DNA of 37,667 nt. It comes from an uncultured Bacilli bacterium (GTDB lineage Bacteria > Bacillota_I > Bacilli_A > RF39 > UBA660). The stretch is taken from NCBI GenBank assembly GCA_944332675.1, contig CALVKJ010000005.1, positions 1 to 37,667 on the forward strand. Reading direction: 5' to 3'. Every line of letters starts with the position of its first letter. Positions within the stretch are counted from its first letter, which is position 1. Shown here in pieces: positions 121 to 11,069 of the stretch. The notes under the pieces were generated by a model. That model was not told where the DNA came from, did not search any database, and was given only the letters and a program-made list of their open reading frames with translations. A program made the translations under genes and the position numbers.

Positions 121-1245
121 TATTTTATTTTCAATATTTACTCTTTGAACTACAAATAGCATAACTATTACATTAACAGTAAAACTACCACCATAACTAA
201 GTAAAGGAAGTGGTACCCCAGTTAAAGGAATTAATGCAAGTACCCCCAATAAATTAATTAGTATATGTAACGTCAAAAACCAAAATGTTCCATAAGCTAA
301 AACACTACAGCGTAAGTTTTCTGATTCTTTAGCAATCTTTAATATTCTAAATAACATATATGCATAACAGAGTATTAAAAATATTCCAAATAATAATCCT
401 AATTCTTCTACTATTATAGGAAATATAAAGTCTGTATGACTTTCTGGTAAATACAAATATTTTTGAGTAGAATTACCAAGGCCTACTCCAAACAAACCCC
501 CATTGTTAATTGCAATAAATCCATTACAAACTTGATATCCCGTAGTTTCTGTATATCTTGAGCACGGATTTTGAAACGTCAAACGATCCATTTGCATACT
601 ATTAAGTAAATCACTGCCAGAATAAAGAATAACCACCACTGCAATAACTAAACCTATTGCTAAAACCTTTATGACTCTAATCATATTATTTTGTACTATT
701 GGAACACTTATAAATGTTAGAAACACGATACCTGCAATAATCGCAGCACTTCCAAGGTCCGGTTGCATAGCAACAAGTCCTGCAACAATTGCCCCAAAAC
801 CTAAAGGAACCAAATAAACATAAATATTTTTCACCTTTTGATAATGTAATTTATTATAATATATCGCTGAAAAAACAATTAAAATTGACTTAGCAAATTC
901 ACTAGGTTGCAAGTTAAAAAAACCTAAATCATACCAACTAACAGCATTATTTGTCATTTTTCCGTTAATGAATAAGAATGCCAAGGCAAGTATTATAATT
1001 ATCAAAGCTGGCCAAGCTAAAAAGCCATAATTACGCGTCGGCAATTTAATTATTAGTGTAAGACCAAAAAGTAAAGACACTGAAACAAATATGGCTTGTC
1101 TTATAAAAAAATGATAAGGAGCATAACCATATCTTACAACACTAGATACACTAGATGCACTATAAATCATAACTAAACCTACCACAATAAAAAAAATAGT
1201 TAATATAAAAAGTGGTATATCCATCTTCGAAAATAACTTGCGCAT
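88..1245 (-). CDS. ftsW: FtsW-type SEDS peptidoglycan polymerase
   Basis: A SEDS-family glycosyltransferase that polymerises lipid II into glycan strands in the membrane, probably at the division site. The 385 residues are almost all hydrophobic helices (about ten). Family landmarks are QPSEFAK near residue 115, QPDLGSA near 161, an extracytoplasmic PESHTDFIFPIIVEELG stretch, and the C-terminal PLLSYGGS motif. The length is typical. The start has AAGGAGAT five bases upstream. It is the last gene of a minus operon behind two small membrane-protein genes. RodA and SpoVE are close relatives; the PESHTDFIF segment favours FtsW/SpoVE. No partner penicillin-binding protein is adjacent. Confidence 0.9.
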   Translation of the reverse strand: MRKLFSKMDIPLFILTIFFIVVGLVMIYSASSVSSVVRYGYAPYHFFIRQAIFVSVSLLFGLTLIIKLPTRNYGFLAWPALIIIILALAFLFINGKMTNNAVSWYDLGFFNLQPSEFAKSILIVFSAIYYNKLHYQKVKNIYVYLVPLGFGAIVAGLVAMQPDLGSAAIIAGIVFLTFISVPIVQNNMIRVIKVLAIGLVIAVVVILYSGSDLLNSMQMDRLTFQNPCSRYTETTGYQVCNGFIAINNGGLFGVGLGNSTQKYLYLPESHTDFIFPIIVEELGLLFGIFLILCYAYMLFRILKIAKESENLRCSVLAYGTFWFLTLHILINLLGVLALIPLTGVPLPLLSYGGSFTVNVIVMLFVVQRVNIENKINKTKREIKAL

Positions 1246-10615: not shown

Positions 10616-10782
10616 AAAAAACTCCTCTATCAAACAACAATCAGTGCCCCGTACGGGCACCAAATATATCTTTTTATCCCTTTTTATAAGGCGTATTTTT
10701 CATTTTTACGGTGAAAAATTACTCCGACATAAAAATAATAACATATTTTTTATATTTGCGCAAAATGTGGTATAATATCAAA
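10616..10782. other. Leader of tsaC with GC-rich palindrome
   Basis: No gene is visible. A 17-base inverted repeat, GTGCCCCGTACGGGCAC (10644-10660), stands out in AT-rich sequence 29 bases upstream of the tsaC start. Read on plus, with the following CA, it resembles the 3' end of the tRNA-Glu in this window (CCCGTACGGGTCACCA) with one base missing. A weaker TTTTTCA/TGAAAAA repeat lies at about 10695-10717. Confidence 0.5.
10768..10776 (+). promoter_or_regulatory. Extended -10 promoter of the structured RNA
   Basis: TGGTATAAT at 10768-10776 is a perfect extended -10 box; no good -35 is present. Transcription is expected at about 10783, exactly where the closing helix of the RNA begins. Confidence 0.65.
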
Positions 10783-10910
10783 TAGAGGTGTGTCTTAAGG
10801 ATATTTTCAATGTTAAGATAATTGTGTGAAATCTAAAGTAGAAAAATATTATTTACACATCTCTTAATTAAAAAACATAAAAAATGAGAGTATTTTTTAC
10901 TCTCGTTTTA
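10783..10910 (+). ncRNA. Candidate free-standing structured small RNA, about 125 nt
   Basis: The first ten bases, AGAGGTGTGT (10784-10793), pair with ACACATCTCT (10855-10864). Inside, TCTTAA (10793-10798) can pair with TTAAGA (10813-10818). A second TGTGT (10824-10828) followed by GAAAT competes for the same ACACA strand through a bulged helix, so two folds are possible. A terminator closes the unit. No ORF follows on plus; the next gene is tRNA-Lys on minus. It lacks the SRP RNA GGAA-loop motif and is too short for 6S RNA or tmRNA. I do not recognise the family. Confidence 0.6.
10886..10909 (+). terminator. Terminator of the structured RNA
   Basis: GAGAGTA (10886-10892) and TACTCTC (10898-10904) pair around a T5 loop, followed by GTTTT. 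Confidence 0.75.
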
Positions 10911-10957
10911 CTCTGGCATATATGAAAAACATAGAAAATAAGGAAAATTTAAACATT

Positions 10958-10993: not shown

Positions 10994-11069
10994 TGGTGTC
11001 CCCTTAGAGATTCGAACTCTAGACCCACTGATTAAGAGTCAGTTGCTCTACCAACTGAGCTAAGGAGAC
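10994..11069 (-). tRNA. tRNA-Lys (anticodon CTT)
   Basis: 76 bases. Acceptor GTCTCCT pairs with AGGGGAC, anticodon arm ACTGA-CTCTTAA-TCAGT, T loop AGTTCGAATCT, CCA encoded. It reads AAG only, so a TTT isoacceptor should exist elsewhere. The -10 box TATACT, with extended TG, lies about 20 bases upstream on minus. Confidence 0.95.

Follow-up and report, generated by a model that had tools for sequence, protein, structure and literature searches.

Introduction

The tiny size of their peptides makes type I toxin-antitoxin families difficult to detect by homology. A hydrophobic, alpha-helical membrane peptide is the usual trait of a type I toxin but not a strict requirement (PMC12390103), SymE and RalR being exceptions. 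AapA1 is a peptide of 30 residues with a transmembrane alpha-helix (PMC8309996). In the full-length aapA3 mRNA, the Shine-Dalgarno (SD) sequence is masked by an anti-SD sequence at the 3′ end, and transient hairpins act during transcription (PMC6733600). The txpA mRNA is degraded by RNase III once it has paired with the antisense RNA RatA (PMC3531473).

The locus described here lies in a stretch of 37,667 nt of an uncultured Bacilli bacterium, which is called the window in the following. With a probability of roughly 0.7, the locus is what decay has left of a prophage-borne module in which a tiny-peptide gene and a cis-antisense RNA are arranged as in a type I toxin-antitoxin system.

The RNA unit on the plus strand

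A first-pass annotation of the window had described an unassigned structured RNA with an extended −10, a closing helix of ten pairs, an inner hairpin and a terminator, which could switch between two folds. As a sequence, this structured RNA is real. The extended −10 promoter TGGTATAAT (TGG TATAAT, 10768-10776, plus strand) matches the consensus at 10 of 12 positions, with a TG before a perfect TATAAT. It places the predicted transcript start at about 10783/10784 and thereby at the closing helix, as the annotation had stated. The putative antisense (antitoxin-like) RNA, which corresponds to the unit annotated before, is predicted from promoter and terminator to extend from 10783 to 10909 on the plus strand. 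Its closing helix is formed by 10784-10793 and 10855-10864 (plus strand; fold prediction and alignment of relatives) and comprises the ten pairs described, one of them G-U. Read on the minus strand, the 5′ arm is the anti-SD ACACACCTCT and the 3′ arm the SD region; from the sequence, the closing helix appears to be largely the SD/anti-SD pairing of a peptide gene, seen from the opposite strand. The comparison with the relatives also revealed a conserved outer motif, GCAAAATGTG (10760-10769, plus strand), the inverted partner of which is present in intact copies and lost in the window.

Inside the closing helix, the minimum free energy (MFE) fold pairs GATATTTT (10800-10807) with AAAATATT (10843-10850), both on the plus strand, and this helix is the one that is formed in the relatives too. 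The inner hairpin annotated before (TCTTAA/TTAAGA) differs from this fold and is missing from the related copies. The proposed switch, in which a second TGTGT segment (10823-10827) would take over one strand of the closing helix, is not supported either, because this segment is missing in the homologues.

The terminator is predicted at 10886-10909 on the plus strand, where the annotated hairpin (GAGAGTA..TACTCTC; hairpin proper 10886-10904) and the T-rich run GTTTTACT after it are indeed present; the promoter/terminator scan reported the palindrome on the minus strand only. The whole unit folds better than 200 of 200 shuffled sequences (z = −4.7). Much of this value is due to the terminator, since without it z falls to −2.2 and 8 of 200 shuffles fold equally well.

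There is agreement that the RNA is not a cis riboswitch. An Rfam scan, one of the checks suggested by the annotation, matched no known family to the window or the related modules: with the Rfam covariance models, tRNAs alone passed the gathering threshold, and nothing credible emerged when the thresholds were relaxed. The label of an unassigned structured RNA is therefore apt insofar as no Rfam family fits, but it overlooked the antisense relation to a conserved small peptide gene.

Identification of related copies

Among 30 members of the genus, blastn detected a single clearly related sequence, in G002 (80% identity across 94 nt), where 13-bp inverted copies of AGCAAAATGTGGT flank the RNA. 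A motif scan of GTDB species genomes led to three 'Lapin' MAGs of uncultured Bacilli (G020, L092 and L093), with two module copies in G020, both cut by contig ends. A covariance model added G399 and G036 from other genera of the same family, a pattern built on the known copies found L110 in IMG/VR, and a sequence model from eight copies added G421 as well as a decayed second copy in G036. Several copies carry different names in different collections (L093 = G023; L092 = G358; L105 = G399; L106 = G036). Altogether, apart from the window's own genome, seven genomes and a contig of IMG/VR contain copies of the module. Only six copies, a small number, are intact (G002, L092, L105, L106, L110 and G421).

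The distribution of the module among the genomes of the family is sporadic. A broad SD/anti-SD pattern matched 20 of 386 family genomes, with the peptide present only in four that were already known. In the window's genome, which is 68% complete, no further copy was detected with the covariance model. Weak matches of the sequence-only model (R2) were mostly AT-rich noise; among 18 loci screened, G421 alone combined ORF, SD and anti-SD. Matches to AGCAAAATGTGRTACA at two mismatches are common in the genus and were rejected as well, as they mostly resemble ordinary extended −10 promoters. In viral contigs, the exact core TCTAAAGTAGAAAAATAT occurs 32 times, in no case with the module, and stricter RNA patterns gave zero matches. 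A blastn search with L105 against annotated phages found no match, and tblastn with two of the peptides against phages and plasmids gave chance-level matches only. A separate dispersed repeat was seen in G024, where three loci (L099, L102, L103) with near-identical flanks share a GTGATACATCTTC..GATTGTATCAC hairpin.

Coding conservation on the minus strand

The relatives contain an ORF of 20-24 codons on the minus strand. In all six intact copies it is preceded, a few bases upstream, by the strong SD GGAGGTG, and the spacing between SD and start codon is fixed. The encoded peptides are MIFFYFRFSKIKFYLKISFRHTSE in G002, MINFYLKFGRHQIIVKLSYTRS in L105 and MIILFVRINRIRIFIKLHFHTS in L110; those in L092 (MIILYVKLGKFIVYIKFLKHTP) and L106 (MIFIHIVIAKLELEIKISLHS) start from GTG and that in G421 (MIIYIRIGKKFRLLIKLSKI) from TTG. 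The cut copies of G020 and L093 encode C-terminal halves, which match the intact peptides. The consensus reads MI-[IF]-[LF]-Y-[VL]-[KR] ... [IV]-K-[LI]-S.

Coding was tested on an ungapped block of 57 nt from seven sequences by means of column shuffles. The peptide frame contains no stop codon, where 12.7 are expected from the shuffles, and its mean BLOSUM62 score of 1.31, compared to −0.05 ± 0.34 in the shuffles, was reached by none of 2000 shuffles (P<0.0005). The scores of the five other frames lie within the shuffle range, none being significant. Conservation in the block is highest at second codon positions.

Searches of five peptides against the profiles of Pfam, NCBIfam and PHROGs at E-values up to 10, which have little power for such short queries, gave no match, and the family could not be matched to any described one in these collections from its sequences. 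The peptides are short and mostly cationic. Their hydrophobic moment at 100 degrees is no higher than that of shuffled sequences and peaks at 120-180 degrees, which is a strand-like amphipathicity, and the pattern of the usual alpha-helical membrane segment was not found in the hydrophobic moment. Membership among the usual membrane-helix toxins is therefore in doubt.

Organization and predicted folds of the intact copies

Read 5′ to 3′ on the minus strand, an intact copy consists of a short hairpin (e.g., TAGGCAAATGTGAAATTTGCCTA in L110), the arm AGCAAAATGT, the SD, the ORF, the anti-SD, an inverted extended −10 and the inverted arm ACATTTTGCT. The CTCC-type anti-SD sits in the last codons of the ORF and, in G421, directly after the stop codon. 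Past the stop of the ORF, the plus-strand extended −10 TGTGRTAYAMT is found in G002, G020, G023/L093, L092, L105, L106 and L110. G421 is a diverged version without the AGCAAAATGT arms, yet it has the extended −10 TATGTTATAAT and a good antisense terminator. As this motif lies just past the ORF stop on the opposite strand, an RNA transcribed from it would be cis-antisense over the whole peptide gene and, going by the sequence, fully complementary to the peptide mRNA.

Compared to shuffled sequences, the intact copies reach z-scores of −3.6 to −5.6 on the toxin strand and −5.8 to −6.9 on the antisense strand. L092, L105 and L106 are predicted to form a structure with closed outer arms, in which the SD is paired with the 3′ anti-SD; the MFE folds of G002 and L110 keep the outer helix, with the SD region paired otherwise. 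The outer helix is nearly invariant across the copies and therefore provides no covariation support. The covariance-model search proposed in the first-pass annotation yielded relatives (G399/L105 and G036/L106) but no such support for this helix. The inner helix within the ORF keeps 77% of its pairs over seven ORFs, compared to 42-51% when it is slid, and one of its positions is changed on both sides in three sequences, which is a modest signal. Since RNAalifold found no common pairs on the gapped alignment of the toxin strand, structure was judged per sequence and on the ungapped ORF block.

Decay of the copy in the window

In the window, the ORF is represented by a decayed frame of 24 codons plus stop, IIFFYFRFHTIILTLKISLRHTSI (10778-10852, minus strand). 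According to the alignment, the frame is open in all seven aligned sequences and its amino acids are conserved. However, the start position is occupied by ATA in place of ATG, GTG or TTG, and the SD is degenerate (AGAGATG, 10858-10864, minus strand, from the alignment; GGAGGTG in intact copies). With start codon and SD lost, the window copy lacks the working ribosome-binding site that is present in the six intact relatives. The 5′ arm and the 5′ hairpin of the module are also gone and, unlike the intact copies, this one folds with z = −1.4 against shuffles. The simplest reading of the sequence would be a dead peptide gene together with a possibly live, orphan antisense RNA. Since the window has kept the antisense promoter and a terminator but neither start codon, SD nor 5′ arm, at most such an orphan antisense RNA is expected to be made there.

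Genomic context of the module

The peptide gene of L092, L105, L106 and L110 shares the strand of an endolysin gene (amidase, M23, or weak NlpC/P60) and is located just after it; in two of them, L105 and L110, it also follows a holin-like gene. On the other side, L105, L110 and a G020 contig contain similar HNH-like genes with weak Pfam support, which are opposed to the peptide. This placement directly behind endolysin and holin genes, as well as the shortness and mostly cationic character of the peptides, would also suit a lysis or late-stage accessory of the phage, i.e., no maintenance toxin, with the antisense RNA setting the timing. This main rival is considered unlikely, as the copies of G002, the window and G421 persist outside any recognisable prophage, each with its own antisense promoter motif. 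These three copies are located near tRNA genes, and we infer that they are leftovers of lost prophages. In the window, tRNA detection found a tRNA-Lys (10994-11069, minus strand), a likely integration hot spot, and a tRNA-Lys lies beside the G002 copy as well.

The modules of L092 and L093 are located at a break of cotJC (manganese catalase) at TEEL(GH), and on a G020 contig the C-terminal half of cotJC adjoins the module. The break of this spore-coat gene at TEEL(GH) was observed in three MAGs (L092 3190-3396, L093 7023-7289 and L056 1097-1444), was apparently caused by related prophages, and the splitting element is possibly a skin-like intervening element.

The sequence at and past the terminator of the window is common to five module-less members of the genus. 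It lies close to tRNA genes there or, in the case of L007, adjacent to a gene for a tyrosine integrase. Since it recurs without the module, the terminator of the window probably stems from another integration scar. The stretch of ACTCTC repeats at 10880-10930 of the window, shared with L003, L005, L006, L007 and L011 at tRNA 3′ ends or at the integrase, looks like such a scar. The integrase of L007 (1558-2871, minus strand; PF00589, 2.7e-14) has a LysM domain (PF01476, 4.1e-10) at residues 260-303, within the span of the integrase match.

Two further loci were observed in mobile elements. The phage contig L058 of G020 contains a frame for a hydrophobic peptide of 21 residues, MQYLIILTVILALLIKLFKDQ (283-382, minus strand), preceded by an SD and followed by terminator-like hairpins, which looks like a classical type I toxin. 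In an inovirus-like element of G008 (Zot-like, Rep_OBD, integrase), the module is represented by its antisense promoter motif and its 5′ hairpin, with no peptide ORF (L098 1501-1591); this locus is possibly an antitoxin-only copy (model E-value 0.03).

Other explanations of the locus

The RNA of the window could also be a small noncoding RNA in its own right, perhaps a switch, with an accidental ORF on the opposite strand. The plus-strand promoter, helix and terminator as well as the missing start codon of the window ORF are consistent with this. It is nevertheless very unlikely in view of the coding test on seven sequences, of the constant distance between SD and start codon in six copies, and of the TGTGT alternative strand, which is missing in the relatives. 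Least probable is a MITE or insertion-sequence end with the hairpins as terminal inverted repeats, an idea prompted by the inverted repeats of 13-14 bp around the module in G002 and L092 and by the contigs of G020 and L093, which stop exactly 77 nt into the module, measured from one common outer boundary, in the way contigs break at an assembly repeat; it was dropped after coding conservation and phage context had emerged, as there is no target-site duplication at the G002 and L092 copies (by eye) and no transposase gene among the neighbouring ORFs examined, and as the module is under coding constraint inside and the surrounding phage genes account for the repeated copies.

Proposed mechanism of the putative toxin-antitoxin module

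The reading as a type I toxin-antitoxin module builds on computed homology, coding frame, SD, anti-SD, promoter motif, phage context and predicted folds, from which we infer transcription, pairing in the cell, toxicity and purpose as follows. The minus strand of an intact copy encodes the peptide of 20-24 residues, usually cationic, behind its strong SD. The full-length mRNA is expected to fold end to end and to hide the ribosome site, because the anti-SD at its 3′ end is joined by an outer arm that complements the 5′ leader. An RNA made from the promoter past the ORF stop would cover the SD and the entire ORF in antisense, and pairing of both RNAs may inhibit translation or lead to cleavage of the duplex by RNase III. 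Silencing of the peptide by the plus-strand RNA is proposed by analogy with the SD masking of aapA3 and the RNase III decay of txpA/RatA. The likely role would be prophage maintenance, with the peptide being made only upon loss of the antisense RNA.

More tentatively, the module may represent a new type I family of prophages in uncultured gut Bacilli, with a cationic, strand-amphipathic toxin of 20-24 residues in place of a membrane helix and a whole-gene antisense RNA. Its decay may leave orphan antitoxin RNAs, as in the window and perhaps in the inovirus-like element of G008, which could protect their carrier from related phages.

The peptide family is absent from Pfam, NCBIfam, PHROGs and Rfam and was reached from an orphan structured RNA via the opposite strand of its relatives. 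It offers a testable pair of peptide and antisense RNA in a lineage that is chiefly known through metagenome-assembled genomes. The window illustrates that, through decay, an antitoxin-like RNA may be left behind in a genome by itself.

Comparison with known systems

The module resembles aapA/IsoA of Helicobacter and other Epsilonproteobacteria in its very short peptide, the predicted cis-antisense RNA and the distant anti-SD at the 3′ end, which masks the SD of the full-length mRNA there (PMC6733600) and is predicted to pair with it here in L092, L105 and L106. It differs in belonging to another phylum and to a phage context, in the length of 20-24 residues and in the strand-like amphipathicity. 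The NCBIfam and Pfam scans, without matches to any family, gave none that links the peptides to aapA/IsoA.

A very short peptide under RNA-antisense control, putative in the present case, is also typical of the Fst/Ldr superfamily of Gram-positive bacteria and mobile elements (PMC7472228). However, the peptides described here lack the PXXXGC motif of this superfamily (PMC8309996) and have no match in Pfam or NCBIfam.

Finally, txpA/RatA and yonT/SR6 from the prophage-like elements Skin and SPbeta of Bacillus subtilis are comparable as prophage-borne small toxin genes controlled by a convergent antisense RNA (PMC3531473; PMC5848175). YonT has 58 residues, compared to 20-24 in the peptides found here. 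The RNAs of these two pairs overlap mainly at their 3′ parts, whereas the antisense RNA predicted for the module spans the whole ORF and the SD.
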